Assembly (NCBI RefSeq): GCF_004135385.1
Contig: NZ_CP035493.1
Coordinates: forward strand, 124,001 to 188,000
Direction: 5' to 3'
From: Xylanimonas protaetiae
Lineage (GTDB): Bacteria > Actinomycetota > Actinomycetes > Actinomycetales > Cellulomonadaceae
DNA: 64,000 nt
Shown one piece after another: positions 17,745 to 47,229 of the stretch. The position numbers were made by a program, and so were the translations under genes. Each line of letters opens with the position of its first letter. Positions within the stretch are counted from its first letter, which is position 1. The notes under the pieces were generated by a model. The model did not search any database. It was not told where the DNA came from and saw nothing but the letters and a program-made list of their open reading frames with translations.

Positions 17745-17793
17745 CCGCACCTGGGCCCGCCGTCCCGGCGGGTTCTTCTCTGCCCATCATAGT

Positions 17794-17809
17794 GAGTGAT
17801 TGTTCACTC
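17794..17809. promoter_or_regulatory. Second GAGTGA-TCACTC inverted repeat
   Basis: GAGTGA-TTGT-TCACTC lies about 23 bp before the SRPBCC start codon. Its half-sites equal those of the palindrome at 17163-17186, but the spacer is four bases instead of eight. Binding by the same TetR protein is inferred. Confidence 0.6.
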
Positions 17810-17831
17810 TATTTGCCGAACGGAGACCACC

Positions 17832-20943: not shown

Positions 20944-20964
20944 GGTACCGACTACTGAACTAAC

Positions 20965-20983
20965 TTCACTAACCTTTAGTGAA
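20965..20983. promoter_or_regulatory. Operator-like 19-bp palindrome
   Basis: TTCACTAA-CCT-TTAGTGAA, perfect eight-base arms with a three-base spacer, centred in the 61-bp gap between the TetR gene and the amylase gene. Likely binding site of that TetR protein. Confidence 0.75.
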
Positions 20984-21004
20984 TCGCTCTCAGTAGGAGG
21001 TGTC

Positions 21005-24390: not shown

Positions 24391-24440
24391 CGTTGACCTC
24401 CAGCATGTCTGATGCCCAGTCTTCCGTCGGCCACTGACAC

Positions 24441-25259
24441 TCATCGGCCGTGAGCTCGGGCACAGAGGACGCAGTCGTCCAGGATCCACCGTGCGGTTCG
24501 CTGCTCGTCGTAGATGGCTCGGGTACTTCCGAAGTTGTTGCCGATGTTGAGCTGGCGCCCGAGCGTGACGACCGTTACGTGACGTGCCCCGGCGGCTTTG
24601 AGGGCTGCAGCGGCGCTGGCGGCTGACGAGCCGGACGTCCACGTATCGTCGAGCAGGAGGACCGAGGCACCGCCGACGACGTGCGGGTTCGTCGAGTACG
24701 CCTCGGGCTTGAGTTCACCGCGCCCCGGTCGGGTTGTACTTCGATCGCGTGCGATGGCATCGAGGCGCCAGTTGAAGATATCGAGGACAGGGTCGTTCGC
24801 GACCACGTCGCGCAGGAGATTGCCGAGATGGTCGAACGGGCGGCTCGGGTTGCCTGACGGGATGAGGGTGGCGAGATCGACCCCGCCCGATACACCCTCA
24901 ATGCAGTCTGCATGCTTGCCTACGAACAGGGTGAGGAGGGACGCCAGGGGCATCCTCAGCCAGTTGACGTTGCGATCCTTGTAGCGGTGAAGCATCGACT
25001 CCAGGCCGGCATCCAGGCTGTAGGTGATCGGTACCAGGGCGTCCACCGCGTCGCCGTAGGTGCGGCACTGCCAGCAAACTGGCCATGCGTTCCCCGCCTC
25101 GCGGTAGCTGGACGATCCGTAGCAGCGCTCGCAGCTGAGTGGATGGCGGGGCGCGACCGGGACCAGAGTTTCGCCCTGCTCATCGAGCCAGTCCAGCCAA
25201 CTCTGCGTACTGTGCGCACGTTCGACGATGGCTGGGCGTGCGAAGTCGCGGTACGCCAC
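24441..25259 (-). CDS. ComF-like phosphoribosyltransferase (first gene of the operon)
   Basis: 272 residues from a GTG. Zinc-binding CERC and CWQC pairs near residues 44-72, then a divergent central part and the PRPP loop VLLLDDTWTSGSSAASAAAA about residue 202, followed by VTVVTLGRQ. Same architecture as the protein encoded at 22676 but clearly diverged from it, so it is an ancient paralog rather than a recent duplicate. First gene of the minus-strand operon PRTase, DprA-like, PRTase. The IS1634-family element lies about 130 bp upstream of the start. Confidence 0.82.
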   Translation of the reverse strand: MAYRDFARPAIVERAHSTQSWLDWLDEQGETLVPVAPRHPLSCERCYGSSSYREAGNAWPVCWQCRTYGDAVDALVPITYSLDAGLESMLHRYKDRNVNWLRMPLASLLTLFVGKHADCIEGVSGGVDLATLIPSGNPSRPFDHLGNLLRDVVANDPVLDIFNWRLDAIARDRSTTRPGRGELKPEAYSTNPHVVGGASVLLLDDTWTSGSSAASAAAALKAAGARHVTVVTLGRQLNIGNNFGSTRAIYDEQRTARWILDDCVLCARAHGR

Positions 25260-30191: not shown

Positions 30192-31346
30192 CTATCCGGC
30201 GGCCAGGTGCACGAGCGGCGGGACGTTGTCGGCGCCGTCCTCCGTCAGCACCGACGCGCGGACGGCATGCGCCACCGACACCATCGCCATGTGGTGATAC
30301 CAACCCTGGTGCGAGCGTCCTTCGTAGTCCGCGGCCCCGAGCTCGCGCGCCATGCCCTCGAACGCACGGTCAGCCTCAGCGACCAGGTCTGTGCGCGCCA
30401 CCGTCGCGGCGACGTCCTCCTCCATGTCCGTCAGCCACACGCCGGCCCAGCCAGCACCGCTCGACCAGAGTCCCACGAGCGTCGCAGCGATCGAACCAGC
30501 CGGACCTCGCAGGACGACGGGCGTGCGGCTGGCGGTCCGCAGGGTCACCCCAGGCACCAGCCGCGCCTGGCCCCGGACGAGTTCCGCAAGGCGCTGGGCG
30601 CGAAACCGCCCCGGCGTGCTACCTAACGGCGGCACGCCGTCCTGGGCCTGCAGGTAGGTGCTGCCAGGGATACGCAGAAGGAACGGCAGGCCCTTGGCGC
30701 GAGCAGCGGCGATGATCAGACCCGGGTCCGCCTCACGGGCATCCATCATGACTGGCACCGTCCGGTCCACCGGGCGCAGAGCCCGGACCAGCGCGGCTGC
30801 GGCATGGGAGGCGGTTGGGCTGTCGTTCCGGACGGGGACGTGCGTCTTCGTCCGCTGCCCTTCGGCCTCATCGCATGTGGCGGCCATGACCATCCGCCAG
30901 TCGACGGGCACCGTGAGCCGCTGCCCCACGAACCACGACGCTAGGACGTGCTGGTGGTTGACCGCTCGGCCCAGGCATGGCACCACCTCGTTCTTCACAC
31001 CGACCGACTGGTCGCCGTGTTTTTCGACGACCATCGGCCGGACAACCCAGCCTCGCGCGACGTCCTCGGCCTGCAACCGGCCGACCAACCGGCCGAGGAC
31101 GTCGCGAGAGGACCAGGTCGAGCGGCTGATGAAGTGATGGAGCCGCTGCTCGTTAGCAGTCTGCTCGCGTTCGCAACTAGCGATCCGACGGACGGTCTTC
31201 CGTCCACTGGCGGCGAGGAGCCCCAGCACGTACTCATGCCCCCGGGTCCGCTGGTCGGACCGCGCCATGCCGGCGAGGACGAGCCGGCACAGCTCGTCCG
31301 CTCGCTCTTGTTCCAGCCGAGCCAAGCCGTCCGTCTCGTACGACAT
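30192..31346 (-). CDS. IS701-like transposase homolog, probably catalytically dead
   Basis: 384 residues from the ATG at 31346 (GGGAG eight bases upstream). The N-terminal RGHEYVLGLLAASGRKTVRRIA, the HHFISRSTWS segment and the C-terminal YEGRSHQGWYHHMAMVSVAHAV match IS701-family transposases. However, the first Asp of the DDE triad, normally in a VxDDTG-like motif, is replaced by MVVEKHGDQSVG; the later VPVMMDAREAD keeps the second Asp. No inverted repeats are evident around it. Such solitary homologs occur near actinobacterial biosynthetic clusters and may act as DNA-binding proteins; here that is inference. Confidence 0.75.
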   Translation of the reverse strand: MSYETDGLARLEQERADELCRLVLAGMARSDQRTRGHEYVLGLLAASGRKTVRRIASCEREQTANEQRLHHFISRSTWSSRDVLGRLVGRLQAEDVARGWVVRPMVVEKHGDQSVGVKNEVVPCLGRAVNHQHVLASWFVGQRLTVPVDWRMVMAATCDEAEGQRTKTHVPVRNDSPTASHAAAALVRALRPVDRTVPVMMDAREADPGLIIAAARAKGLPFLLRIPGSTYLQAQDGVPPLGSTPGRFRAQRLAELVRGQARLVPGVTLRTASRTPVVLRGPAGSIAATLVGLWSSGAGWAGVWLTDMEEDVAATVARTDLVAEADRAFEGMARELGAADYEGRSHQGWYHHMAMVSVAHAVRASVLTEDGADNVPPLVHLAAG

Positions 31347-31529
31347 CTGTGATCTCCCAGGCGTCCAGGTGTCCAAGCGCCAGACCCGCAGCTGGTTGAC
31401 GCCCCTGCCGCGCGGCGCCATCGACATTCGCTTCCGAACTCGCGGGCACCCTACTCGCCCGTTCTGTGCTGCTCACCCGTATCGCCCGGGAGTTCACGTA
31501 ATGAGACCGAGCCGGGGTGTCTGCCGTTG

Positions 31530-32747
31530 TCACGCCCTCCGGAACTCGATGCCAGGTGTCGCGGAACCGCCTCCAAAGCAGGCGGCAGCGGCCGTCACCA
31601 CGCTGCCCGCACGCCGATCGTCCGGGCCGAGGGCGATCAGCCGGTTCGGGACGTACGAGACGCCTGCACGGACCCGCGGCCATGCCTGGTTTGCTGACCC
31701 GCCCCCGCCGTCGTGCCCAAAACTCGCGCCATCGGCCCCTGGCCTGGCGCGCGTACGCAGACGGTACCCACCGCCCCCGTAGACCATCGGAACCCCAATG
31801 ATCGCATCCGTGTGGCGGGCATGCTCCCTGGTGGCGTCACGCAGGAGCTCGCGCCCCAGGATCGCTGCGGGTTCGCCCTCGTCACGGGTCGCGTCCGCCG
31901 CCAAGAGGCTGTACAACCGAGCGAGGTCACGAGCGGTGCCGACGGCGTTGACCGCCGGGACAAGCGCGGTGAGCCGACGGGGGTCGGACCAGATGGCGGC
32001 GTCAGGCGGAAAGGGCATTGGGTTCTGCCAGACCCGCTGAGTCAGCGGGTCGCTGCTGGTGAAGTACCCAGTGAACTGGTCGAGGAACCCGGCGCCGTAC
32101 TCCGTCCTGGCGACCCGACCCAGGTCACCGGGGCGGACGCCGAAGTGCACGTCCAGCCCATGCGGCGCCGCGACTTCGTCATGGAAGAAGCGTGCAAGAT
32201 CGCGGCCGTCCACCCGCCGGATGATCTCCGCCACGATCCACCCCGGCGTGAACGGCCCGTACATCAGCGGGTACGCGCGGGGATCATCCTCAGGCGGTTG
32301 TGCGGCGAGCACCGCGGCCATCGCCTCGGGATCCTCGACGTCCGCCTGCGAGACCGCCTCGTGCAGCGCGGGCAGGCCTGCGGTGAACGTCACCACCTGG
32401 CGGAGGGTGATGCGATCCTTGCCAGCAGCCCCGAACTCGGGCCACCAGACGGAGACCGGTCGGTCGAGGTCAAGCCCGGCACGCTCGACGAGGACGAGGA
32501 GGGCTGTCGCGACCAGGCCCTTGCTGCCCGAGAAGATCAGCTGCAGCGTGTTCCGCTCCCACGGGCGCTCGTCGTAGGCGTCCGCGACGCCGCCCCACAG
32601 GTCGGCGACGAGGTCGCCGTCGACGGCAACGGCAAGCGCCGCACCGAGCTCGTCACGATGCGTGAAGTTGCGGACGAACTCGGCTCGCAGTGGCTCGAAG
32701 CCGCTGTGGACAGTCCCCTGGACCGCGTCCGCCGTCTCTGTCGTCAC
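31530..32747 (-). CDS. Beta-lactamase-class-C-like serine hydrolase
   Basis: 405 residues from a GTG eight bases after the stop of the aldo/keto reductase gene, so the two form an operon. The class-C/esterase EstB fold is visible: SxxK motif FSGSKGLVATALL (Ser about 75), a Tyr in YPLMYGPFTPGW that can serve as the second catalytic residue, and HDGGGGS near the C-terminus in place of the KTG box. No signal peptide, so a cytoplasmic esterase or transesterase is more likely than antibiotic resistance. The gene flanks the cyclitol operon and may tailor or deacylate its product. Confidence 0.85.
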   Translation of the reverse strand: MTTETADAVQGTVHSGFEPLRAEFVRNFTHRDELGAALAVAVDGDLVADLWGGVADAYDERPWERNTLQLIFSGSKGLVATALLVLVERAGLDLDRPVSVWWPEFGAAGKDRITLRQVVTFTAGLPALHEAVSQADVEDPEAMAAVLAAQPPEDDPRAYPLMYGPFTPGWIVAEIIRRVDGRDLARFFHDEVAAPHGLDVHFGVRPGDLGRVARTEYGAGFLDQFTGYFTSSDPLTQRVWQNPMPFPPDAAIWSDPRRLTALVPAVNAVGTARDLARLYSLLAADATRDEGEPAAILGRELLRDATREHARHTDAIIGVPMVYGGGGYRLRTRARPGADGASFGHDGGGGSANQAWPRVRAGVSYVPNRLIALGPDDRRAGSVVTAAAACFGGGSATPGIEFRRA

Positions 32748-32754
32748 GACGCCG

Positions 32755-33620
32755 TCACCCTTCCACGAGACGCAGCAGCTGCTCATCGGTGAGCTCAATG
32801 CTGCCAGCCGCGACGTTCTCAGCCAGGTGCTCGACCGACGTCGTGCCCGGGATGGGGGCGATCACCGGAGAACGATAGAGCAGCCAGGCAAGTGACACCT
32901 GGGCTGGCGTCGCTCCCACCTCCGCCGCGATCTCGGCAAGCACTCCCCCAGGCTTCGCGAGCTCGCCCACAGCGATCGGGAAGAACGGCATGTAAGTTAT
33001 CCCGCGGCTCTCGCAGTGATCGATGACCGCCCCGTCATTCCTGGCAGAGAGGTTGTACTGGTTCTGCACGACCGCTATGTCCGCAACCTGTGAGGCCTTC
33101 TCGATCTGGTCGACCGTCACCATGGACAAGCCAATGTGCCCGATCTTTCCCGCATCCTGCAGTTCCTTGAGAGCCCCGACCTGATCCTCGAGCGGGACCT
33201 GGGAGTCGATCCGGTGCAGCAGGTAGACGGGGAGGCGCTCGAGTCGCAGGCGCCGAAGACTGAGCTCTGCCTGCTGCTTGAGGTACTCGGGGCGTCCGAG
33301 CGGGACCCACTCCTCCATCGACGGCCCCGGGCGCACGACGCCAGCCTTACTGACGACCACCACGTCGTCGCGACCGCCCAAGGCTTCGCCGAAGATCTCC
33401 TCGTTCGCGCCGAGCGCGTACGAGTCCGCCGTGTCGAACAAGGTGACGCCGAGATCTGCGGCGTGGCGCACCAGGCCGACGGCGGCCGCTCGGTCCGCCG
33501 GACCGTGCCAGACGTCGCCGTCAGCCAGCCGCATCCCCCGTAGCCGATCCGCCCAACCTGCAGGTCCTGCCCGATCAGCACGGCGGGCTCCGCGCTAACT
33601 GAACTCTCGTCAATGGTCAT
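32755..33620 (-). pseudogene. Aldo/keto reductase, broken by a one-base frameshift
   Basis: The start ATG at 33620 has GGAGG seven bases upstream and encodes the N-terminus up to LQVGRIGYGG. There the frame is lost in the run of five C (33535-33539, plus strand); one more base gives YGGMRLADGDVWHG and the rest of a standard NADPH aldo/keto reductase: FDTADSYALGANEE (Asp and Tyr of the catalytic tetrad), VVVVSKAGV (Lys), VYLLHRID (His), and PIPGTTS near the end. About 288 residues if repaired. Reduces carbonyls; its place beside the cyclitol operon suggests a tailoring role. Confidence 0.85.
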
Positions 33621-33894
33621 CTGTCGCCCTCCTGGCAACTCGTTACTCCGGAAGCGCCAACGCTCATCGCTCGAGGTGGCGCGAGCCAAGCGCTCCCGCC
33701 GGAAGGTGTCATGACGGCTGGACTATGTCAGGTCGGGCGTGACGCACGACATTCTCGACATGACAGAGTCCCTTCGAGGTGACGCACTGGGCCACGAGTC
33801 CTGGCCTCGTGCGGATCGCAGGCGGTTGCCTCCTCCACGTCATCGGTGCCGTCCGACAGGGCGGCCCGTCACCGCGATCGAGGAGGCAATACTG
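33621..33894. promoter_or_regulatory. Divergent promoter region of the cyclitol operon
   Basis: 274 bases between the divergent aldo/keto reductase and cyclase genes. Promoters for both directions must lie here, but no -35/-10 pair is convincing and no palindrome stands out. The AGGAGG at 33881-33886 is the ribosome site that fixes the cyclase start. Confidence 0.5.
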
Positions 33895-35121
33895 GTGAGC
33901 GAGATCCTCTCCCCTGCCAGACACGATGGTGCCGGCGTTTTTATCGAGCCACGGAATGTCGACTCGTGGCGCGTGCGGGCCCAGAAGGATGTCGCATACG
34001 AAGTCCGGTTCTGCGAAGACGTGTTCGACCCTCGGTCCACGGCTCTGCTCGAGACCGGCGTACCTGACAGTCCGAGAAGCCTGCGCCGGTTCGTCGTCAT
34101 CGACTCCGTGATCGACAACCTGCACGGCGAACGGATCCGGGCCTGGTTCGACCACCATCGTGTCGAGGCGCACCTTCTCGTCCTCGAGATCGACGAGACC
34201 GTCAAGACGCTGGACATGCTCGCTCAGGTCGCCGCCGAGTTCGACGCTTTCGGGATCGACCGACGGCGTGAGCCGATCATCGTGATCGGTGGGGGCGTGA
34301 TCATGGACATCGTCGGCCTTGCGGCCAACCTCTACCGCCGCGGCACCCCCTTCGTCCGCGTCCCCACGACGCTCATCGGGTTGGTCGATGCGGGAGTCGG
34401 CGTGAAGACCGGTGTCAACTTCAACGGTCACAAGAACCGTCTCGGCACCTACTTCGAGAAGTCCCTGACCCTGCTCGACCCGTCGTTCCTCCGCACGCTC
34501 GACGAGCGGCACATCTCGAATGGCATGGCCGAGATTCTCAAGATCGCCATCGTCAAGGATCGTGACCTCTTCGACGTGCTGTCTCTCTCCGGTCCTGAGC
34601 TGATCGACCGACGTTTCCAGAACGAGGACCGTTCCGGGCGCCGGGCCGCGGCTTACGTCCTCGAGCACGCCATCCACGGGATGCTCAAGGAACTTCAGCC
34701 CAACCTCTGGGAGGCGGACCTGGAGCGGGTCGTCGATTACGGCCACACCTTCAGCCCCACGGTCGAGATGCACGCGCTGCCGGCGCTGCTCCACGGCGAG
34801 GCGGTGTGCATCGACATGGCCCTCACGACGGTCATGGCGGCACGCCGCGGGCTGATGACGGACTCGGAGATGCGGCTCGTTCTCGACGTGATGCGTGCCC
34901 TGCGCCTGCCCGCCTGGGACGACTGCCTTGAGCCTGAGCTACTCGCACGTGCTTTGGAGGACACCCGCCGGCACCGGGACGGTCAGCAGCGGCTGCCGCT
35001 TCCCGTCGGCATCGGCGCCTGCACGTTCGTCAACGACGTCACCACTGACGAGATCACCGCGGCACTGCACCAGCTCCGCTCTCTTGTGTCCGACGGCGCC
35101 CCTCAGGAGTCCCGCGCATGA
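33895..35121 (+). CDS. Sedoheptulose-7-phosphate cyclase (2-epi-5-epi-valiolone synthase-like)
   Basis: 408 residues from a GTG with AGGAGG eight bases upstream. It belongs to the 3-dehydroquinate-synthase-like sugar phosphate cyclases. NAD+ loop IVIGGGVIMDIVGLAANLYRR (about 130-150), then RVPTTLIGLVDAGVGVKTGVN and NGHKNRLGTYF; zinc ligands Glu about 213 (NGMAEILKI), His about 284 (YGHTFSP) and His about 300 (LHGEAV). The ALYRRGTP/GHKNRLG/HTFSP pattern favours the sedoheptulose-7-phosphate cyclases that make 2-epi-5-epi-valiolone or relatives over DHQ or 2-deoxy-scyllo-inosose synthase. The exact epimer cannot be read safely. First gene of a six-gene overlapping operon. Confidence 0.88.
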   Translation: MSEILSPARHDGAGVFIEPRNVDSWRVRAQKDVAYEVRFCEDVFDPRSTALLETGVPDSPRSLRRFVVIDSVIDNLHGERIRAWFDHHRVEAHLLVLEIDETVKTLDMLAQVAAEFDAFGIDRRREPIIVIGGGVIMDIVGLAANLYRRGTPFVRVPTTLIGLVDAGVGVKTGVNFNGHKNRLGTYFEKSLTLLDPSFLRTLDERHISNGMAEILKIAIVKDRDLFDVLSLSGPELIDRRFQNEDRSGRRAAAYVLEHAIHGMLKELQPNLWEADLERVVDYGHTFSPTVEMHALPALLHGEAVCIDMALTTVMAARRGLMTDSEMRLVLDVMRALRLPAWDDCLEPELLARALEDTRRHRDGQQRLPLPVGIGACTFVNDVTTDEITAALHQLRSLVSDGAPQESRA

Positions 35122-36785
35122 CTCGCACCCAACTCACCCGTCGCACGGTCCTCACGGCTGCCGGTGCAAGCACAGCCCTCTTCGGGCTGTCGAGGCTCCA
35201 CGGATCGGCCGGGGATCTGCTGTCCGCGGTCGTCGAGGCGGACACGTCCGGTGCAGCGGCGACGGCGTTGACCGTGACCCCGACCGACCGCCAGTACTGG
35301 GATCTGGTCTCTCCGTTCAACCAGCGCTGGGTCGGATCGCCCGATGCCGTGCGGCTGCCCACGACGACCGAGCAGGTCGTCAACGCCGTGCGGGAGGCGG
35401 TCCGAGCAGGAAAGCGGCTCTCGGTCCGCGGCGGGGGGCACGGCTACGAGGACTGGATATACAACTCCCAGATCAAGGTCGTCGTCGATATGAGCCTGAT
35501 GCGCCGCGTCTACTTTGACCCGGCTCGCCAGGCGTTCGCAGTCGAGGCGGGGGCCTCGCTGCTCGATGTCTACACCGGCTTGTATGAGGGCTACGGCGTG
35601 ACGGTACCCGCCGGGGTGTGCGCCACGGTCGGCATCGGGGGGCACGCCTGCGGCGGCGGTTACGGCATGCTGTCGCGCAAGCACGGCCTGATTGTCGACT
35701 ACCTGGAGGCCGTGGAGGTCGTGACGGTGTCCGCGACGGGGATCGTCAGGCCCGTCGTCGCGACCCGGGACCCGGCCGATCCGAATCACGACCTGTGGTG
35801 GGCCCACACCGGTGGCGGAGGCGGCACCTTCGGCGTCGTGACCAGATACTGGTTCCGCTCCAAGAACACAACCAGCACCGACCCGACGGAGCTGCTACCG
35901 GCTCCGCCGGTCCAAGTACTCTCCGTGACGGCCGAGTGGCCTTGGGACCAGATCACCGAGCAGGGCTTCGCGAAGTTGCTGCGGGCCTACGGTACGTGGC
36001 ACGAACGGCATTCCGGGAGGGCGGACCCCTACGCCGGCCTCTGCAGCTGGCTCTTCGTCCCGCACCGGACGGGCGGGAAGATCAACGTGCTAATTCAGAT
36101 GGACGGCTCCAGGGGCGACGCCGAGCATCTCGTACGCGCCTTCCTCGACGAGCTGGACGCTGCTGCGGGCGTGCTGCGTACGGAGAACGTGCTGCGCACG
36201 GAGTGGCTGAAGGCGACCCGTCACATGGGCATGGGCTCCCCACTGCAGACGTCGCCGACGCTCCGCGGCGAACACAAGTCCGCGTACCTACGCAGGAGCT
36301 TCACCGAGGAGCACATCGCGGCCGCGTGGAAGCACCTGACTCGCGCCGACTACGACAACGGTTACGGCATGTTCGTCGCCACCTCGTACGGCGGCGCCAT
36401 CAATGATGTCGCTCCGGACGCGACGGCCGTGCACCAGCGTGACGCGATTCTCAAACTGCTCTTCCAGACCTACTGGACCGACCCGTCGCAGGACGCGCGG
36501 CACGTCTCCTGGCTCCGCGACCTCTACGAGGAGATGTACGCCTCGACCGGCGGCGTGCCGGTCCCTGGCGAGGTCACGGCTGGCTGCTACGTCAACTACC
36601 CGGACGGCGACATCAGCGACCCTGCCCGTAACCAGTCCGGGGTCCCGTGGACCACGCTGTACTGGGGAGACAACTACTCCCGGCTCCAGCGAGTGAAGGC
36701 CGCGTACGATCCGACCGACTTCTTCCGGCACGCACAGTCGGTGCGGCTGCCCGGAGTCGCCCCGGTGAACGGGGGCCGACCATGA
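35118..36785 (+). CDS. Tat-exported FAD-linked oxidase (BBE type, bicovalent flavin)
   Basis: 555 residues; the start overlaps the cyclase stop (ATGA). N-terminal twin-arginine signal TRRTVLTAAGASTALFG. FAD-binding PCMH domain with RGGGHGYED (His about 108) and GVCATVGIGGHACGGGYG (Cys about 168), the two residues that in this family bind flavin covalently, then a substrate domain and the C-terminal berberine-bridge segment YNGxSRLQRVKAAYDPTDFF-like (NYSRLQRVKAAYDPTDFFRH). Enzymes of this group oxidise alcohols, sugars or amines with O2. A Tat signal implies that the step occurs outside the cytoplasm, unusual in a cyclitol pathway. Confidence 0.9.
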   Translation: MTRTQLTRRTVLTAAGASTALFGLSRLHGSAGDLLSAVVEADTSGAAATALTVTPTDRQYWDLVSPFNQRWVGSPDAVRLPTTTEQVVNAVREAVRAGKRLSVRGGGHGYEDWIYNSQIKVVVDMSLMRRVYFDPARQAFAVEAGASLLDVYTGLYEGYGVTVPAGVCATVGIGGHACGGGYGMLSRKHGLIVDYLEAVEVVTVSATGIVRPVVATRDPADPNHDLWWAHTGGGGGTFGVVTRYWFRSKNTTSTDPTELLPAPPVQVLSVTAEWPWDQITEQGFAKLLRAYGTWHERHSGRADPYAGLCSWLFVPHRTGGKINVLIQMDGSRGDAEHLVRAFLDELDAAAGVLRTENVLRTEWLKATRHMGMGSPLQTSPTLRGEHKSAYLRRSFTEEHIAAAWKHLTRADYDNGYGMFVATSYGGAINDVAPDATAVHQRDAILKLLFQTYWTDPSQDARHVSWLRDLYEEMYASTGGVPVPGEVTAGCYVNYPDGDISDPARNQSGVPWTTLYWGDNYSRLQRVKAAYDPTDFFRHAQSVRLPGVAPVNGGRP

Positions 36786-37933
36786 TGCGCGGCCCGGCGC
36801 TCGACTCCTTGACGTCCACCCGGTTCGTCGCTGCGCTCATGGTGTTTGTCACCCACGTGACGGTCAACCACGTCGTTGCCGACAAGTCCCTGGCGGACGG
36901 GCTGGACCGTTGGCTGGGGCGCCTCGGCTACGCGGGAGTGACGTTCTTCTTCGTCCTATCCGGGTTCGTGCTGATGTGGTCCGCTCGCGAACACGACACC
37001 ATGCGCGCGTTCTACCGCCGCAGGATCGTCAAGATCTTCCCGAACCACCTCGTCACCTGGGTCGTCGGACTCGCTCTCATGGTGGGCACCGGTGCGATCG
37101 CCGCCGTTCCCATCGCCTCGCTTATGCCCAGCCTGTTCCTTGTCCAGTCCTGGAGTACAGACTTGCCGGTGCTGTTCGGCACCAACGGGCCGTCGTGGTC
37201 CCTGGCCTGCGAGCTGCTGTTCTACTTCTCGTTCCCGCTGCTCGCTCCCCTGGTACGAGCCGTACGGACGGATCGCCTGTGGTGGGCCGTCGGCGCCGCC
37301 TGCCTTTTCGAGCTGGCTGTCCCCGCGGTCGCGAGCATGCTGCCGGGCACCGAGCCGTCGCCTTTCCAGAACATGCCGTGGACCCAGAACTGGTTCGCGT
37401 ACTTCCTGCCTGCCGGCAGGGTCGGCGACTTCGTGCTCGGTATGGTGCTGGCCAGGGTCGTCGCCGAACGTCGGCTGCCACGGGTTGGAGTCCCTGCCGC
37501 GCTGGTACTGGCGGGACTCGGCTACGCCGGGGTCCTGCTCCTGCCCGGTCCGTTCGGCTTGGTCGCCCCGGTGGCTCTCCCGCTCGGCCTGCTCGTCGCC
37601 GTGCTCGCCCACCGTGAGGTCGACGGTCGGGCGGGATGGCTCGCCGCCAGGCCGCTGGTGCGGCTTGGCGAGATCTCATTCGCCTTCTACATGGTCCACT
37701 TCCTCGTCCTGCAGTACGGGCCGCTCGGCCTCGCCACACGGGCACCTCAGGACGTGCCGCGCCAACCCGCAGTCGCGGCAGTTCTCGTGGTGACGTCGCT
37801 GGCGATCAGCCTCGGACTCGGCTGGGCGCTGTTCCGGCTCGTCGAGGTGCCCGCCATGAACCGCTGGGGGCGAACCGTCAAGCGCGAACCAGCCGTGCCT
37901 CCGCCCATGATCGAGGAGGCGCTCCGTGGCTGA
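36782..37933 (+). CDS. Membrane acyltransferase (acyltransferase-3/OafA type)
   Basis: 383 residues, start overlapping the oxidase stop by four bases. About 10 membrane segments. The start LDSLTSTRFVAALMVFVTH carries the conserved RxxAAxxVxxxH pattern with the catalytic His, and GVTFFFVLSGFVLMWS plus YRRRIVKIFPNHLVTW are typical. These proteins move acyl groups from cytoplasmic acyl-CoA to extracellular acceptors. In this operon it probably acylates the cyclitol or its conjugate. Confidence 0.9.
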   Translation: MMRGPALDSLTSTRFVAALMVFVTHVTVNHVVADKSLADGLDRWLGRLGYAGVTFFFVLSGFVLMWSAREHDTMRAFYRRRIVKIFPNHLVTWVVGLALMVGTGAIAAVPIASLMPSLFLVQSWSTDLPVLFGTNGPSWSLACELLFYFSFPLLAPLVRAVRTDRLWWAVGAACLFELAVPAVASMLPGTEPSPFQNMPWTQNWFAYFLPAGRVGDFVLGMVLARVVAERRLPRVGVPAALVLAGLGYAGVLLLPGPFGLVAPVALPLGLLVAVLAHREVDGRAGWLAARPLVRLGEISFAFYMVHFLVLQYGPLGLATRAPQDVPRQPAVAAVLVVTSLAISLGLGWALFRLVEVPAMNRWGRTVKREPAVPPPMIEEALRG

Positions 37934-39020
37934 CCCCGTGGTCGCCGAGTTCCGTGCCAACCAGGGGCGGGTTGCCGGCCTCGCGAACAAGCACCTGCTC
38001 CTGCTCACCGTCACTGGCCGCCACTCCGGGACGGGTCGCACCACTCCGTTGCTCTACCTCCCGGACGACGAGGCCTACGTCGTCTTCGGCCTAAACGGTG
38101 GAGCCCCGAGGAACCCTGCTTGGGTCGGCAACCTCATAGCCGCGGGACACTGCGAGATCGAGGTGGGCGAGCGCACGCTGATCGCGACGGTGGAGCGTGC
38201 GACCGGGCGCGATGCAGAGAGCCTCTGGCGTCGACAGGTCGCGCTTGTACCGGAGTTCGAGACGTTCCGAAGCCGGACCACACGGCCAATCCCGATCCTT
38301 CGGCTGCGGCCCCTCACTGTCGGCTTCGGGCCACGACCCCAGGTGGACCGTCCCCGCGGCCGCACCGAGCTCGACGTGGAGGCGATCCTCTTCGACATGG
38401 ACGGCACGCTCGTCGACTCCGAGGAGTCGATCAACGCCGTGTGGACGGCCTTCGCGCTCCGGCACGGCCTGGACCCGGAGCAGGTCGTCGCCGGCGTGCA
38501 TGGCCGGACCGGGTCGGAGATCATCGCCGACCATGTCACCGACCCCGAGGTTGCCGCCGTAGAGCGGAGGCGGATGGTGGAGGAGCAAGCAGACGCCGCC
38601 GACGTCGTACGGGAGGTCGCCGGAGCGAGCCGTCTGCTGCGCGCGCTGCCCAGAGCGGCGTGGGCGATCGTGACGGCCGCCCCTCGGTGCATCGCGATCC
38701 GGCGCATCGCCGCTGCCGGTCTTCCTATGCCCGACGTCCTGGTCAGCGCGGAGGACGTCCCGCGGGGGAAACCTGATCCCGAGGGGTTCCTCCACGCGGC
38801 CCGGGCCCTGGGCGCTACACCGGAACGCTGTCTCGTGTTGGAAGACTCTCCCGCTGGGATCGAGGCCGGCGCACGCGCTGGCGCGACAGTCGTGCAGGTC
38901 GGCGCGCCGGACGGCGGTGCCGTGCACGGCGCTGACCTCATCGTGCCTGACCTGACACACCTCCGGGTCCAGGCCCGCGGGTCCCGAGGGCTGCACGTCA
39001 CCGTCGAGGACCACGCATGA
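37926..39020 (+). CDS. Fusion of F420/quinone-type nitroreductase domain and HAD phosphatase
   Basis: 364 residues from a GTG, overlapping the acyltransferase by eight bases. Residues about 1-125 match the Ddn-type split-barrel flavin/deazaflavin reductase family (LTVTGRHSGTGRTTPLLYL, RNPAWVGNL). After a basic linker, residues about 150-360 form a HAD superfamily sugar-phosphatase: ILFDMDGTLVDSEES (motif I), IVTAAPR (II), RGKPDPEGF (III) and VLEDSPAGIEAG (IV). No stop or start separates the two halves. The HAD part can remove the phosphate placed by the neighbouring kinase or act on a phosphorylated intermediate; the reductase half may reduce an enone or quinone-like intermediate. Confidence 0.88.
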   Translation: MADPVVAEFRANQGRVAGLANKHLLLLTVTGRHSGTGRTTPLLYLPDDEAYVVFGLNGGAPRNPAWVGNLIAAGHCEIEVGERTLIATVERATGRDAESLWRRQVALVPEFETFRSRTTRPIPILRLRPLTVGFGPRPQVDRPRGRTELDVEAILFDMDGTLVDSEESINAVWTAFALRHGLDPEQVVAGVHGRTGSEIIADHVTDPEVAAVERRRMVEEQADAADVVREVAGASRLLRALPRAAWAIVTAAPRCIAIRRIAAAGLPMPDVLVSAEDVPRGKPDPEGFLHAARALGATPERCLVLEDSPAGIEAGARAGATVVQVGAPDGGAVHGADLIVPDLTHLRVQARGSRGLHVTVEDHA

Positions 39021-40060
39021 CCGTGGCCACCGGACCTCAGGTCGACCTTGACATCGGGGGTACCTGGTTCCGCGCCCGGGTCGCGAACAACTCGGGCGCG
39101 GAACCCTTCGAAACCGTGCTCCCGGCCCCGAGCCTCTTGCGGCGCCCCGACCGCCACGTCGGAGACCTGATCGCGGACCTCGTCGACCTGCTCGACCGTT
39201 CAGCTCCTCCCGGTGCCGACGTCGCGGTATCGCTGGGTGCAGCGATGGACGAGACGACGGGAGTCGTCCGCGGGTCTGGGCCGTTGTGGGGGGACTGGAC
39301 GGGGCAGTTGCCGCTGGCCGACCTGCTCCGGAAACGCCGACCCGACGCACGTTGGGCCATCTTCAACGACCTCACCTGCGGGGTCGCCTCACTCGCCGCC
39401 TCCGCGCCGGCGGAGGCGGCGCAGATCACCTACATGACGGTCAGCAGCGGCGTGGCGCTCCGTACCGCCGATCGAACGCGAGGGGTTATCGAGGTGGACC
39501 GGTGGGGCCTGCAGGGAGAGGTGGGACACGGACCAGCCGCTCCGGTCGATCGCCAGATCCTCCAGCACTGGCCACTACCCTGCGAGTGCGGTGGCCTCGG
39601 TCACGTCGCGTCCCTCGCTTCCGGCCCGGGCTTGAGCCGCGCGGCGCACGCCCTTGGACTCGGACCTGCCAAGGACTTCGCCCAGCGGTTCCCCTCACTC
39701 CTCGATCTCGGTGATCCGCTGGCACAGACACTCCTCACCGAGGCAGTGCGCCCCGTCGCCGAGGCTATCCGGGGACTGTGGCGCGTTCGTCCCCACGCGG
39801 AACTGGTCGCGGTAGGCGGTGGAGTCGCCAGCGGCCTCGGCCGCCGGTACGAGAGGGAGTTGCGCCGACTGCTCGTCGAGGATCGGACGTACGCGGACGG
39901 CGGACGGGACCACGCCTGGGTCGCCGAACACGTCTGGGTGACGTCTGACACGGATCTCGACCTGCGGGCTGGAGCTCGCCTGCTCGCCAACCACGTGCTA
40001 CGCCCGCTGCGTCCGGGCGGAGACCACCATGTCAACCACAACCAAGGAGACGCTCGATGA
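39017..40060 (+). CDS. ROK-family kinase (cyclitol/sugar kinase)
   Basis: 347 residues, ATGA overlap with the fusion gene. ROK signatures: DLDIGGTWFRARV (phosphate loop), a central GLQGEVGHGPAA with the catalytic His region and PCECGGLGHVASLASGPG, in which the usual CxCGxxGC zinc cluster has His in place of the last Cys, and VAVGGGVASGL. Characterised cyclitol kinases AcbM (acarbose) and ValC (validamycin) are ROK proteins acting on valiolone derivatives, so phosphorylation of the cyclase product is the likely role. Substrate identity is inference from context. Confidence 0.87.
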   Translation: MTVATGPQVDLDIGGTWFRARVANNSGAEPFETVLPAPSLLRRPDRHVGDLIADLVDLLDRSAPPGADVAVSLGAAMDETTGVVRGSGPLWGDWTGQLPLADLLRKRRPDARWAIFNDLTCGVASLAASAPAEAAQITYMTVSSGVALRTADRTRGVIEVDRWGLQGEVGHGPAAPVDRQILQHWPLPCECGGLGHVASLASGPGLSRAAHALGLGPAKDFAQRFPSLLDLGDPLAQTLLTEAVRPVAEAIRGLWRVRPHAELVAVGGGVASGLGRRYERELRRLLVEDRTYADGGRDHAWVAEHVWVTSDTDLDLRAGARLLANHVLRPLRPGGDHHVNHNQGDAR

Positions 40061-41193
40061 CGACCACCACCACCCGTAGCAGCCGCACGCCGTCGACCAC
40101 GACGAGAGACTCGGCCACGCATCGTGCGATTATCCGGGCGCCCACGAAGTGCGTGTTCGTCGAGGTGCCGACGCCCCAGCCTGGTCCCGGCGAGATCCTG
40201 CTCGCACCGGAGGCCGTCGCCGTGTGCGGGACAGACATCCAGATCCTGCGCCGAATGCGGCCGGATCCCGCGGACGTCGTCGGCCATGAGGGCTTCGCCC
40301 GCGTCGTCGCCGTCGGATCAGGCGTTACCGGAACCGCGGCGGGAGACCGTGTCATGGTCAACCCAACCGCACCCGGCAACCCGAACTTCCTCCTTGGACA
40401 CAACGTCCCGGGCCTGCTCCAAGAGCGCGTCGTCGTCAATGCCGCAGCGGTCGCAGGCGGACAGCTCCTGCCAGTTCCCGACCAGCTGCCAGCGGCGCTC
40501 GGCACGCTCACGGAGCCACTGGCCGTCGTCACCTACGCGCTGGAATGTCTCCGCAACACGGCACCCCGGCACCTCGTCGTTGACGGTGGAGGTCTCATCG
40601 GACTCCTCGCCGCCACCCGGGCACGACGGGTCCTCGGCGCGGACACAGCGATCACCGTCCTGCACCGGCACGACGCCGTTCGCCGCTGGGCAGTCGATCG
40701 CATCCCTGGCATTCACCGCACCTGGAGCCTGGACGACGACCCCATGGGGCTGGCCGACGTCTCCGACGGCGCCGCGCTCCTGTCCGCCGTCTACCGGGAC
40801 GCGACGACGCAGCACGTCGAACGGCTTCTTGAGGTGCTCGGGAACCGCCTCATTGCGGTCCACGTGATAGGAGGTGTACAGGACTCGGCCCACCTCCGCG
40901 ACTCCAACAGTGTCGATCTCGCCGCAGTCCGTGCCGACAACACCGGCGGTCCCTGGCCCCCGCATGCCTCGTCCGCGGGAAGCCAGTTGTTCACGGGTAA
41001 CCGTGGAGTGTCGAACGCGAGGCTGGCCCTCGCGGCAGGTGACCTCGCCGCCCACGGGCACGAGCAGGCGTCGCTTCTGACGCACGTCGTCGGGCCGGAG
41101 GACGGAGTGCGCTTGCTGAACCGCATCGTTGCCGGCGACCGCCACGACAGCTCGGGCGAGCCCATAATCCGCCTGGTGATCCGGTTCGGGTGA
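40057..41193 (+). CDS. Zinc-dependent alcohol dehydrogenase-like cyclitol oxidoreductase
   Basis: 378 residues, ATGA overlap and AAGGAGA six bases upstream. MDR fold: catalytic zinc ligands in AVCGTDIQ (Cys), VGHEGFARV (His, Glu) and LTEPLAVV (Glu), and NAD(P)-binding VVDGGGLIGLLAA. The structural-zinc loop lacks its four cysteines (NPTAPGNPNFLLGHNVPG), an uncommon loss. Comparable dehydrogenases act in acarbose and related cyclitol pathways. Last gene of the operon; the following MBL gene starts 157 bp later. Confidence 0.87.
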   Translation: MTTTTTRSSRTPSTTTRDSATHRAIIRAPTKCVFVEVPTPQPGPGEILLAPEAVAVCGTDIQILRRMRPDPADVVGHEGFARVVAVGSGVTGTAAGDRVMVNPTAPGNPNFLLGHNVPGLLQERVVVNAAAVAGGQLLPVPDQLPAALGTLTEPLAVVTYALECLRNTAPRHLVVDGGGLIGLLAATRARRVLGADTAITVLHRHDAVRRWAVDRIPGIHRTWSLDDDPMGLADVSDGAALLSAVYRDATTQHVERLLEVLGNRLIAVHVIGGVQDSAHLRDSNSVDLAAVRADNTGGPWPPHASSAGSQLFTGNRGVSNARLALAAGDLAAHGHEQASLLTHVVGPEDGVRLLNRIVAGDRHDSSGEPIIRLVIRFG

Positions 41194-41349
41194 GCCATGA
41201 GCATCCCGTACGGCGGACGACCGCCGCTTCCCCCCTCGGCTTTCGCCCGGTAGCTCCTCAGTTCCCGACAGGCCCGGCAGCGACTACGCAAGGCACCCAA
41301 ACCGCGAACACGGTTGGATCGAGAACATGGGCGACGAGAGGGGAACGTG

Positions 41350-42585
41350 ATGGTGTGGGTGAACTCGACGCACACGCAGTGGGCCGCAGGTCAGGGGTTC
41401 TTCCGTTCAGGCAGGATCAGCACGGACCACGTCACGGTGAACTACGTCTACGACTGCGGGTCGGTCGGGAGCACCGCTCGGTGCAAGGCGGAGATCCGCA
41501 CCTACACGTCAGGCGACGGTGCGCCGTCGAAGGTCGACATGGTCTTCCTGTCGCACTTCGACCAGGACCACGTTAACCGAGTCAAGGACCTCGTCGCGGC
41601 CATTCCGGTCGAACGCTTCGTCATCCCGCTCGTCTCGGCGCCCGAACGACTCCTGGCCCTTGCGCGATCGCTCGACAGCCGCGAACCGATCGACCCCGAC
41701 GGCTGGTACGCATCGTTCGTCGTCAACCCGCGAGGCGCGCTCACCGCCCTTCCCAACCAAGCCGGGGACGCCGAGATCATAGAAATCCCTCCAGGGACAA
41801 CGCCAGAGTTCGCTGACGACGACGTGCTGGCCGCTGGCGACGTCACTGAGCCAACAGGTGCGGCGACGACCTGGGTCCCGCCTCTCGTGACGAGGCCTGC
41901 CCGCATCGAGGCCGCAACGCGCGGCGGTAGGACCCGCCCAGTTTGGCTGTGGGAGACATACGTGCTCGCAGACGTCACAGACCGCCAGAGACTGTTCGTG
42001 CAGGCGCTCGCCCAGGAGCTCTGCGTGGACGCCGAGAGCCTCGCCAAGGACATTGACCGCACCGCGTGCGTGCGCTCACTAGTTATGAACGAGTCCCGAG
42101 CGCTGCGTAAGGCGTACGAGGCCGTCAGCACAGATCTCAACTTCACGTCGCTCATGCTGTACTCAGGCCCCGTCAACGCGATCGGGACGGGAAACAGCGC
42201 CAAGTCGTGGCGGACGCGCCACGGTGGCGTAGACCGCGCCGAGATTGCCGCCTGGGACGTGCGTCCTGGTTGGCTCGGAACTGGCGACGCCCCGCTCAAC
42301 TCCGCCGGCAGGCTCAAGGAGTTCGGTCGGGTCTTCGAACGGCACCTCCCCAACGTCGGAACATTCGCCCTCCCACATCACGGCTCACGGTGGAGCCTGG
42401 ACCCGGTGCTCCTCGACATGTTCAGTCCGCCACTGCCGGCATGCGTCGTGTCCGCAACAACCCCGCGCTACGGCCATCCTCATCCGGAGACGCAGACCGC
42501 GGTACACGACCGCGGGTTCCACCTGGTGCAGGTCACCGGGGACCCTCGTTCACGATGGACGAGTTCCGCCACCAGTTGGCTCTGA
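41350..42585 (+). CDS. ComEC-type metallo-beta-lactamase-fold hydrolase
   Basis: 411 residues from the ATG preceded by GAGAGGGG. The metal motif is LSHFDQDHVN (residues about 67-76), HxDxDH as in the MBL domain of ComEC rather than the usual HxHxDH. The C-terminal half has FALPHHGSRWS and CVVSATTPRYGHPHPET, also ComEC-like. No membrane segments, so it is a free-standing cytoplasmic nuclease or phosphodiesterase candidate. Stand-alone relatives are common in defence-rich islands. It is not overlapping the cyclitol operon and is probably independent of it. Confidence 0.85.
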   Translation: MVWVNSTHTQWAAGQGFFRSGRISTDHVTVNYVYDCGSVGSTARCKAEIRTYTSGDGAPSKVDMVFLSHFDQDHVNRVKDLVAAIPVERFVIPLVSAPERLLALARSLDSREPIDPDGWYASFVVNPRGALTALPNQAGDAEIIEIPPGTTPEFADDDVLAAGDVTEPTGAATTWVPPLVTRPARIEAATRGGRTRPVWLWETYVLADVTDRQRLFVQALAQELCVDAESLAKDIDRTACVRSLVMNESRALRKAYEAVSTDLNFTSLMLYSGPVNAIGTGNSAKSWRTRHGGVDRAEIAAWDVRPGWLGTGDAPLNSAGRLKEFGRVFERHLPNVGTFALPHHGSRWSLDPVLLDMFSPPLPACVVSATTPRYGHPHPETQTAVHDRGFHLVQVTGDPRSRWTSSATSWL

Positions 42586-43699: not shown

Positions 43700-46600
43700 T
43701 CACCGGGGTGTGAGGTCGACGTCGAACTGCTCGACGCCGGCGGCCCACCCGGGTCCTGCGATCTGCTGAGCCCACCGGATTGCGGTCTGTGCGCGTTGGC
43801 GGTCGCGGGTCTGGGCGACGGTGACGGGGTCACCACCGAGGACCGTGCGTGGGCCGATCTGGTACCGGTCGCGGTAGGCGGCGACGACCGCGGCCTGCGC
43901 GAGCCAGGCACGGCGTTCGGCTTCCGTCCCCGGCCGGGGCCCGAGGTCGGCGACCCACGGTTGCCGGTCACGGATGGCCGCGGCTACCAGGTCGTTCGCT
44001 CGTTGCACGATGAGGGCGGCGCGCTGGTCCAGCGCGGTGCGGGTCTCGTCGTCGATCGGGCCGTGTGCCTCGGGCACGAGTCCAGCGATCAAGTGGGGTT
44101 CGTGGCCGGTGGCGGGTCGCCCGGCGGTGTTCCAGAGCCGCCACGTAAGGATTGCGGCCACGTTCTCGGCGTCCTCGAACCCGCGTCCGGCCACGACACG
44201 CTCAAGCAGGGCCTCGGCGTCGCCGCGGATGGCGTCAATGCGGCGCAGCTCGACACACAGGGGCCCGAAGGCGTCGTCGTTGACGACGGCGGCTGCCTGG
44301 TCGGGATTGAACCCAGCACGGTCGATCAGGGTGCGGGTGACGGCGTCGGCCCAACGGTCGTGGTGGGCGAGGGTGGCGATGGTCTCGTACTCGGCCGCGA
44401 GCTGGGCGATCGACGCGTACCGCTCCCGCTCGGTGCTGATGGTCTCGTGCGCGGAGGCCTCGACGCCCGTGTGGGCGAGCACGTTCGTGAGCACGGTGTG
44501 GGCGGTGATCTGGTCGGTGATCGGGTGGGTGTGCAGGTCGTCGGCATTGTCGAGGGCGACGTAGGCGGTGTTCGCGTGGCGTCCGCGGGTCATGGCCACG
44601 TAGAGGTTCTCCCGGCTGGTACCAGTCGCGACGACGACGTGGCAGGTGTCGACGGTCATGCCCTGGGCGCGGTGAGCGGTGACGGCGTAGCCGAGGTCGA
44701 CGTGCTGGGTGACGTAGTCGGCGGGCAGGACGACGCTCGCGCCGGTGTGCCAGCCCTCGCGGCGGACCTCCATGCCGCCGTCGCGGTGGACGTCGGTGAC
44801 GCGCCACCGGTCGCCGTTGCGGACCCATCCGCCGCAGGCGGTGCGCAAGGTGCGGTTGTTCCGGCGGGTGATGACCAGGTCTCCGGTCGACGCGCGGGCG
44901 TCGTTGGCGAGGGTGGCCTCGCGGTCGGCGAGGGTGTCGCCGTCGAGGATGCGTTCGGCGCGGGCCCGGGCGTTGAGGTCGCGCACGTGGTCGGCCGAGT
45001 CCGTCACCAGCAGGGTGCGCAGCTCGGCGCGGGTGTCGGCACGCCAGGCGGCGTAGGCGGCGTCGACCATCTCCTCGCTGGTGCCGGCGCGGACGCGGTC
45101 GTGGTCGATGTACGTCTCGACGACATCGGTGTCGCCGTCGCGCAGGTCGAGCGAGGCCCGCTTCTCCCACTCGTGGAGGAACCGGTGCACCTCGGTCAGT
45201 TGGGGGACGCGGCCGCCGCGCTCGTGGCGCAGCATGGAGAACGCTCCCCCGGCGTCGACGGACTGCAGTTGGGCGTGGTCACCGACCAGGAGCACCTTGG
45301 CTCCCGCCTGCGCGGCAAGGCCGGTGATGCGGTCGAGGGTCAAGGTGGAGGCGAGGGTGGCCTCGTCGATGATGACGAGCTGCCCCGCCGTGAAGTCGGC
45401 GCGGCCGTGGTCGTGCTCGTGGAGCCACTTGGCGGTGTTGTCACACCCGATCTGCAAGTCACCGGCGAGCACCTGCGCGGCCGCGGCCGACGGGGCGAGC
45501 CCGACGACGGAGCCCGGGCCGTACTGGGTGACCCAGACGTGGCGCAGCGCCGTCATCGCGGTGGTCTTGCCCGCACCCGCGGGCCCCAGGAGAAGGTCGA
45601 CCTGCCTCCCCGAGGTGGCGATCTGTTCCAGGGCGTCGGCCTGCTCGACCGACAGGACCTGCCCGTTGTGCTCCCTGGCCGTGATCGCCGCGACCACCTG
45701 CCGTGCGAGGTACGGGGCGCTCAGGTCGTTGCCGCGGTCGATGAGCCGCTGCTCGGCAGCCAGGATCATCTGCGACGTCAGCACTTTGCCGTGCAAGGGC
45801 CGGAACATGCTCGTCCCGTCGGCCCGGCGCAGGCGCGCGGGTGTCACGCTCGCCTCGGGCGGGGTGACCTGGACGGACTGCTCCTCCGCGGCCGCGACGA
45901 TCGCGGCCACGGCCTGCTCGCGGTCCGTGGTGGTGGCGAACCGCCATCCGCCCGTCTGACGGGAGGCCTCGGCCCACAGGTTCCAATGCCGCCACGTCGA
46001 ACGCTTCTGCGCCACAGCCGTCACGACGCGCGCGCCCACCTCGGCGAAGATCTCGGCAGGGACGCGGTCGAACGTCAGGGACGCGCCCGCCGGACCACGC
46101 GTGATGCCCGCCGCCCAGGCGGCCGGGTCCTCGCCTACGAACCGTCGGGCGCGTTCGCGCCACGACGCGGTCAGATCGGCCAGGGATCGGATGTGCTTCT
46201 CGGGCCGGGTGTCCAAGGTGGCCTGGGCGCGCATCTTGATGACCGCCGCCCGCGACGGCGCCCTGCCGTGCGCGGCGACGTACTCGGCCACGAGCCGGTC
46301 CTTGAATTCCTCGATCATCCGGGTCCGCGAGGAGAACTCGGCGATCAGGGACTCCCCGACACCGGCGATCTCCCACTGCGCGGAGCGCTCGTCCCCACGC
46401 AGCCGACGCTCCCAGGCGACGCCGAGCTCGGAGGTGAGCCGGTCGGCAAGGACGGCGTTGTAGTACTCGCTCAGCCCCACGGTCGCGGCGTGCAGCGAGC
46501 GGCTGTCAAGCCCACGCCACACCCCGTCCTGGAGCGTCTTGACCTTGTTCGAGACGACGACATGCGTGTGCAGCTGCGGGTCGTTGGCGCGCGAGTCGTA

Positions 46601-47229
46601 GTGGTCGAACGCGGTGGCCTCGATGCCGATGACGGGAACCTGGGCGCGCGAGGCGTACCCGATGCGGGTGCTGGCGACCTCACGTTCCAGGAGGCCGATC
46701 ACGTCCGCGATGGCGGCATGGTGGATCTCCGCGATCCGCGCCTGCGTCGACGCATCGGACAGCGCCCACAACACGGACACCGACTTAGCCACGGAGAACG
46801 TCAGGTCATACCCAGCCACGGCCGTCGGGGTCGACCTGCCCGACTCCACCCGCGTGATCGCCTCCACCGCGGCAGCACGCTCATTCTCGGCAAGGCCCGC
46901 TGGCAGCGCTGGGGCGCCCGCATCGATGCGGTCGCTCAGCGACGGGTACCGCCGGAAGTCGGCCCCGAGCGGGACACCAGTGATGGGGTCGTGGCCACGA
47001 CCCAGGAGGGCCTCGAGCTGGGTAGCGGTCACCGGGTCGCCGGGCGCGAGTCCGCCGTCACCGAACTCGCCGACGCCACCCCGAGCCAGTAGCCCGGCGG
47101 GGTTCCTTCCTCCAGGTAGTACCGCGTCAACGGCGTGCGCAGCGACCGGTTCCCGTCACCGGTCACCACCGATCGCAGCAGGTACTGGTAACCCTTGCCC
47201 GCCGACATCACACGCAGCGACACCGTCAT
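43700..47229 (-). pseudogene. MobF-family relaxase-helicase (TrwC/TraA-like), broken by one frameshift
   Basis: Repaired length is about 1176 residues. The N-terminus (ATG at 47229, GGAGGT site upstream) encodes MTVSLRVMSAGKGYQYLLRS and the catalytic-tyrosine region LTRYYLEEG. The frame is then lost in the CCCC run at 47079-47082 (plus strand); one more base continues as GGVGEFGDGGLAPGDPV. The rest contains the relaxase HUH segment (PQLHTHVVVSNKV), Walker A LLGPAGAGKTTAM, IIDEATLA, LLVGDHAQLQ and YAVTAHRAQGMTVD of the RecD-like helicase. It nicks oriT and unwinds DNA for conjugation. If the frameshift is real, the tyrosine and the metal site are on separate peptides and transfer is abolished. 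Confidence 0.92.

Follow-up and report, generated by a model that had tools for sequence, protein, structure and literature searches.

The subject of this analysis is a compact candidate C7-cyclitol operon in a stretch of 64,000 nucleotides from Xylanimonas protaetiae (hereafter the window): six plus-strand genes at 33895-41193, which overlap successively by 4, 4, 8, 4 and 4 bp. The operon starts with a GTG at 33895, preceded at 33881-33886 by AGGAGG with eight bases between, and encodes an EEVS-like (2-epi-5-epi-valiolone synthase-like) sedoheptulose-7-phosphate cyclase (33895-35121; Pfam DHQ_synthase and DHQS_C), a probably bicovalent FAD oxidase of the twin-arginine translocation (Tat) type and the TamL/AknOx/CrmK group (35118-36785; FAD_binding_4 and BBE), a membrane O-acyltransferase (36782-37933; Acyl_transf_3, PF01757), a fusion of an F420H2-dependent reductase with a HAD domain (37926-39020; F420H2_quin_red and HAD, with NCBIfam), a ROK-family kinase, presumed to be a C7-cyclitol 7-kinase (39017-40060; ROK), and a zinc medium-chain dehydrogenase/reductase (MDR), presumed to be an AcbL/SalM-like dehydratase (40057-41193; ADH_N). 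Divergent from these genes is a minus-strand pair (31530-33581) of an aldo-keto reductase (AKR) with interrupted frame (32755-33581; Aldo_ket_red) and a LipL-like serine esterase of beta-lactamase fold (31530-32798; Beta-lactamase), the latter adjoined by an IS701-family transposase gene (30192-31427, minus strand; NCBIfam IS701 above cut-off). The overlapping six-gene operon had been proposed in an initial annotation of this DNA and is borne out by coordinates, overlaps and Pfam families, whereas the divergent AKR, the esterase and the mobile-element context had been overlooked; what was called there a nitroreductase-HAD fusion is indeed fused to HAD, but its reductase part belongs to the deazaflavin (F420H2) enzymes.

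Among PDB entries, the cyclase matches best 4p53 (434 bits; 54% identical over 371 columns), which bears the title 'Cyclase' and which we take to be ValA. The score drops to 263 bits for 5tpr, entitled 3-dehydroquinate (DHQ) synthase and presumably the desmethyl-4-deoxygadusol synthase (DDGS) of A. variabilis, to at most 125 bits for other DHQ synthase or AROM entries and to 81 bits for 2-deoxy-scyllo-inosose (DOI) synthase. Residues L, D and H are found at ValA positions 267, 281 and 360, presumably the fingerprint numbering of Kean 2014, where 5tpr has E, A and T, and the metal ligands are retained in the alignment. That fingerprint sites exist in such cyclases has been described (PMC4426668; this and the other papers given by PMC number are cited for excerpts of their text). 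Judged from its sequence, the window cyclase thus is EEVS-like, in keeping with the earlier annotation; match scores and fingerprint residues rule out a DHQ or DOI synthase, and the absence of E/A/T rules out a DDGS of mycosporine or gadusol pathways. A tree of 94 rows, built by a quick method, makes the window cyclase sister to that of Kineococcus (SH-aLRT 99) and places both in a 42-row branch (SH-aLRT 95) together with ROK/HAD-containing and pseudoglycosyltransferase-like clusters. ValA stands outside this branch on a long end branch; the tree holds three references, with 2-epi-valiolone synthase (EVS) and DOI synthase (DOIS) absent, and long branches, ValA included, were flagged.

Two further observations concern the cyclase family at large. 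Residues of the DDGS type (E/A/T) occur in 9 of the 90 other aligned loci (L033-L041, all from the class sample), which group with 5tpr; their sequences suggest mycosporine-type pathways. Sedoheptulose 7-phosphate cyclases are also encoded in 19 plasmid records, namely on large plasmids with 45-50% identity to the window enzyme (16 Streptomyces clavuligerus records, NZ_CP065235.1 among them, as well as NZ_MK318987.1 and NZ_AP023270.1) and in one Nostoc record at 38%.

The closest PDB relative of the oxidase is TamL (513 bits), and the protein groups with TamL, AknOx, CrmK and 2wdw, the last of which we take to be Dbv29. Its His and Cys align with the TamL residues that presumably link the FAD, and a twin-arginine motif, TRRTVL, begins at residue 7. 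Throughout the 26 distinct oxidases found in cyclase loci the His is invariant (26/26), the Cys is present in 25 and the RR motif, searched with a loose pattern, in 24; the one lacking the Cys (in L056) lies about 8 kb from its cyclase. The genome of the window strain itself yielded one strong and one weak, partial BBE match. The window oxidase is therefore probably Tat-exported with bicovalently bound FAD, and His/Cys, BBE domain and TRRTVL agree on the sequence level with what had been proposed. A Tat-exported oxidase of the berberine bridge enzyme (BBE) family, SfmCy2, matures a prodrug, and the review describing it also cites a paper whose title speaks of oxidative activation outside and reductive inactivation inside the cell (PMC11375781).

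Ten hydrophobic segments were counted in the acyltransferase by a simple hydropathy scan. In the fusion protein the F420H2 reductase occupies residues ~1-129 and a sugar-phosphatase-like HAD domain residues ~150-353. This arrangement was seen only in the window, the two parts being separate genes with a 4-bp overlap in Kineococcus: in a search of 394 sampled class genomes, with five candidates scored per genome, 103 matched at E <=1e-30. Those listed from outside the window align with the HAD half, and the match that extends deepest in the direction of the F420 half begins at residue 90. The window's own genome carries an F420 ligase gene, and F420 is therefore likely made. The kinase contains the motifs DIGGT and CECGGLGH and matches Pfam ROK, in line with the predicted kinase of C7-cyclitol pathways. 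The dehydrogenase may, by analogy to AcbL/SalM, form an enone instead of acting as a plain alcohol dehydrogenase. The AKR frame breaks near 33534-33537, with the N-terminal strand in another frame; across 258 aa the protein shares 72% identity with the AKR of Kineococcus, and a stretch of 15 residues from the N-terminus matches in the other frame (33537-33581). The esterase has an SGSK motif and matches the NCBIfam LipL model below cut-off; among the loci clustered, its protein family is confined to the window and L042-L045. As had been stated before, no aminotransferase or pseudoglycosyltransferase gene was found, nor a nucleotidyltransferase or glycosyltransferase gene, among the annotated genes at 22-47 kb, where some short or overlapping open reading frames are unannotated. 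The window yielded no tRNA and, at gathering score, no Rfam match. A gene with metallo-beta-lactamase fold (41314-42585, plus strand) directly follows the operon and is probably unrelated to it; in Kineococcus, a major facilitator superfamily (MFS) transporter gene takes this place.

The gene order recurs in Kineococcus xinjiangensis DSM 22857 (L043), where the cyclase, FAD oxidase, acyltransferase, F420 reductase, HAD, ROK kinase and dehydrogenase genes are arranged and oriented as in the window, together with a divergent AKR and esterase pair and an IS701 gene adjoining the esterase. Identities (tblastn) amount to 68% for the cyclase, 64% for the oxidase, 53% for the acyltransferase, 49% and 44% for the F420 and HAD parts, 49% for the ROK kinase, 50% for the dehydrogenase and 64% for the esterase. 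The Kineococcus locus differs from the window in its separate F420 reductase and HAD genes, the extra MFS gene beside the dehydrogenase, its intact AKR and its IS701 gene, which is 45% identical to that of the window on the amino acid level and lies on the opposite strand. Of all forms seen, these two operons are the smallest, and the matching order rules out a chance adjacency of the genes.

A rearranged version, comprising cyclase, oxidase, acyltransferase, ROK kinase, dehydrogenase, HAD and esterase, is found in three Streptomyces loci (L042, L044, L045). Genes for a short-chain dehydrogenase/reductase (SDR) and a TIM-barrel protein stand between dehydrogenase and HAD in L042 and L044, with only remnants in L045 (Streptomyces olivoreticuli ATCC 31159), where all that is found of the L042 SDR (residues 2-35) and of the L042 TIM-barrel protein (residues 268-316) lies side by side at 17615-17851; a deletion seems to have taken most of both genes. 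Neither of these L042 proteins has a match in the window at 20-48 kb (E 1e-4), and the SDR of the longer relatives has none in the window or the Kineococcus stretch. The F420 half, in turn, finds no match in L042, L044, L045, L053, L101 or L147. AKRs form a loose family (window, L043, L045, L061, L110), with the L045-type AKR present in L042 and L044 too, and for the Streptomyces loci the AKR was not counted among the shared genes.

The wider distribution was surveyed in the best 80 of 254 relatives from a scan of GTDB contigs. As a simple gene caller had overlooked or broken up some genes, ROK and acyltransferase of L043 among them, presence was scored by tblastn at E below 1e-20 in flanks of at most 10 kb per side; given these limited flanks and several truncated contigs, all counts are lower bounds. 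By this measure the oxidase occurs in 26, the acyltransferase in 30 and both in 18 of the 80 loci, ROK and dehydrogenase together in 29, and these two plus HAD in 23, whereas the full set of oxidase, acyltransferase, ROK, dehydrogenase, HAD and esterase is found in four (L042-L045). The expectation that exported oxidation plus acylation would be unusual is not supported in this form, as the two form a recurrent pair. Among 17 further distinct loci of the class sample (L023 and L026 were omitted before counting as copies of L064 and L099), one has the oxidase and one the acyltransferase, never together; with 18/80 against 0/17, the pair is concentrated among closer relatives. The window's own family offers two cluster types: CYC-ROK-ADH-SDR-TIM-HAD-GT in L147 (cyclase, CYC; dehydrogenase, ADH; glycosyltransferase, GT) and SDR-VOC-FAD-acyltransferase-cyclase-cupin-MFS in L146. 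The window operon looks like a cross between them: it has the ROK/ADH/HAD core of the pseudoglycosyltransferase type, minus SDR, TIM barrel and GT, combined with the pairing of oxidase and acyltransferase that marks the second type.

The latter arrangement, in which acyltransferase, flavin oxidase, cyclase, cupin and SDR genes are mostly joined by VOC and TetR genes, recurs in L060, L063, L066, L067, L069-L074, L081 and L146 (Streptomyces, Lentzea and the window's own family) and looks like a second C7-cyclitol type with oxidase and acyltransferase.

Regarding its surroundings, the operon most likely belongs to the cargo genes of a plasmid that has integrated or of a conjugative element, judged from base composition, gene content and distribution. 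The GC content of third codon positions (GC3) is 0.92-1.0 in called genes up to 22.2 kb and 0.74-0.87 at 22.7-42.6 kb, except for one transposase gene (0.92). To the right of the operon lie a MobF/TrwC relaxase gene (43700-47032, minus strand; Pfam TrwC), which we regard as context and not as part of the pathway, and a Prim-Pol gene; the relaxase is 50-55% identical to those of its four best plasmid records (Paenarthrobacter, Microbacterium (two) and Glutamicibacter). The cyclase was found in one of 11 genus genomes, that of the window, and not in the other 10, four of which are less than 90% complete; in samples of the order and of the class it was found in 8/396 and 17/394 genomes. The low-GC3 stretch comes after an alpha-amylase gene (20858-22243), and a DprA-like gene (DNA_processg_A; 23437-24642, minus strand) of low GC3 lies near its left side; from 22676 to 64000 the window holds genes for a DDE transposase, IS701, the MobF relaxase, a type II/IV secretion ATPase, a SAF-domain protein and the Prim-Pol primase.

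We propose that this EEVS-initiated operon directs the synthesis of a nitrogen-free, O-acylated C7-carbasugar of the valienone type, similar to gabosines or COTC, which is oxidised after export, a reading that we consider evenly poised between right and wrong. In this scheme, the cyclase would convert sedoheptulose 7-phosphate to 2-epi-5-epi-valiolone, the ROK kinase would phosphorylate O7, the AcbL-like MDR dehydrogenase would dehydrate the intermediate to a valienone-type enone 7-phosphate and the HAD domain would remove the phosphate. The 2-epi configuration is probably kept, since VOC and TIM-barrel epimerase-like genes were not found, the role of the TIM barrel as epimerase being a guess. 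These four core steps are well supported by family membership and by the recurring gene sets, and from the remaining enzymes we infer the later steps, their order, the product and the site of oxidation: the membrane acyltransferase would esterify a hydroxyl, as in gabosine G or COTC, and the Tat-type flavin oxidase would, after export, turn a remaining alcohol into an aldehyde or a ketone; the reactive compound would thus be formed outside the cell. Inside, the F420H2 reductase, the AKR and the esterase may adjust the redox or acyl state or disarm product re-entering the cell. More tentatively, and inclined to doubt it ourselves, we suggest a recurrent actinobacterial class of acylated carbasugar enones or enals, gabosine/COTC-type compounds included, which would be harmless inside, armed outside by the Tat-exported bicovalent oxidase and disarmed upon re-entry by F420H2- and NAD(P)H-dependent reductases.

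Several points weigh against the proposed pathway. The search of the window operon brought up neither a transporter nor a regulator gene. Enzymes of the Acyl_transf_3 family often modify surface glycans. The frameshift of the AKR may mean that the pathway is impaired or the assembly wrong, and the Streptomyces AKRs (L042, L044, L045), which share only 35-37% identity with the window and Kineococcus enzymes, may not be their counterparts. The AcbL/SalM-like assignment of the dehydrogenase is indirect, as it draws on the 40% identical dehydrogenase of L053 (S. cyaneochromogenes) and on the S. lincolnensis cluster discussed below (PMC10717218).

Alternatively, the product could be a free valienol- or streptol-like cyclitol, with the acyl group as a temporary mask cleaved by the esterase, and the exported oxidase and the reductases forming a protection cycle. 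Acyltransferase and hydrolase do occur together, in the window as serine esterase and in L101 as an alpha/beta hydrolase just before the acyltransferase, and streptol is a C7-cyclitol inhibiting root growth (PMC8599487); a streptol-type product, however, needs its C1 ketone reduced, whereas window and Kineococcus lack an SDR match, the window AKR is frameshifted and the exported oxidase could reverse the reduction, so that we regard this alternative as unlikely. We think it quite improbable that the operon is a decaying remnant, which arrived with a mobile element and no longer functions in this strain: the AKR frameshift, the adjacent transposase gene and the failure to find the cyclase in the other genus genomes are consistent with decay, but all six plus-strand genes are open, with short overlaps and a good ribosome-binding site, and the inspected catalytic motifs are kept. 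A role in a cell-surface glycan or lipid carrying the cyclitol, with acyltransferase and exported oxidase decorating a surface polymer, is very doubtful, for although both enzymes are surface-acting and Dbv29, a protein related to the oxidase, acts oxidatively on a sugar borne by a larger scaffold (PMC11375781), no glycosyltransferase or nucleotidyltransferase accompanies them among the annotated genes and dephosphorylation by HAD suggests a free small molecule.

A candidate nitrogen-free C7-cyclitol operon of six to eight genes is small enough to be expressed as a whole and would make keto-carbasugar biosynthesis as well as the role of exported flavin oxidases in C7-cyclitol clusters directly testable; the recurrence of oxidase and acyltransferase with the cyclase suggests a class and not an oddity.

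EEVS clusters as such are well known. The acarbose (acb) and validamycin (val) clusters share with the window an EEVS-type cyclase, an AcbM/ValC-like ROK kinase, an AcbJ-like phosphatase function and, presumably, an AcbL-type dehydratase annotated as dehydrogenase: AcbM and ValC are ROK-like C7-cyclitol kinases, AcbJ is a cyclitol phosphatase (PMC9200736), and AcbL dehydrates 5-epi-valiolone-7P to valienone-7P (PMC7081202). By comparison, the annotated window genes include no VOC epimerase, nucleotidyltransferase, aminotransferase or pseudoglycosyltransferase and add the flavin oxidase, acyltransferase, F420 reductase and esterase; an acarbose or validamycin variant is rejected, since neither amino nor coupling genes turned up among them. 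As anticipated, no description of the window gene set was found in the open-licence literature searched, outside of which most subscription papers on C7-cyclitols fall; by this measure the nitrogen-free acyltransferase/oxidase variant with an F420-HAD fusion would be new.

The salbostatin-like sets of L147 and L053 (GT-SDR-ROK-ADH-SDR-TIM-HAD-CYC) have cyclase, ROK, ADH and HAD in common with the window, in which no match to the SDR or TIM barrel and no such GT was found. The rancinamycins of S. lincolnensis, which we take to be acylated carbasugar aldehydes, provide a lead only, and L053, a proxy for this species, shows neither oxidase nor acyltransferase in the stretch that was fetched. The predicted C7-cyclitol cluster of S. 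lincolnensis (SLCG_5038/5041) likewise includes a gene for a HAD protein and one for a SalM/AcbL-like enzyme (PMC10717218).

Regarding the product, gabosines and COTC are nitrogen-free C7 cyclohexenones, some of them O-acylated, and match what the enzyme set of the window predicts. Gabosine G is O-acylated. L101 of S. cellulosae, presumably a gabosine producer, combines cyclase, SDR, HAD, ROK, ADH, TIM barrel, hydrolase and acyltransferase, with no flavin oxidase found in the fetched stretch. COTC is a crotonyl ester from Streptomyces, and interest in COTC-type keto-carbasugars stems from their study as inhibitors of glyoxalase (PMC2635666). The first description of gabosines dates from 1974 (PMC7961443), yet the open-licence literature searched yielded no gene cluster for these compounds or for COTC. 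With the BBE-like oxidases TamL, Dbv29, AknOx and SfmCy2 the window oxidase shares family and FAD-linking residues, and with SfmCy2 a predicted twin-arginine export; as the word 'cyclitol' is absent from the excerpted text of the BBE review (PMC11375781), a cyclitol substrate would be new relative to that review.

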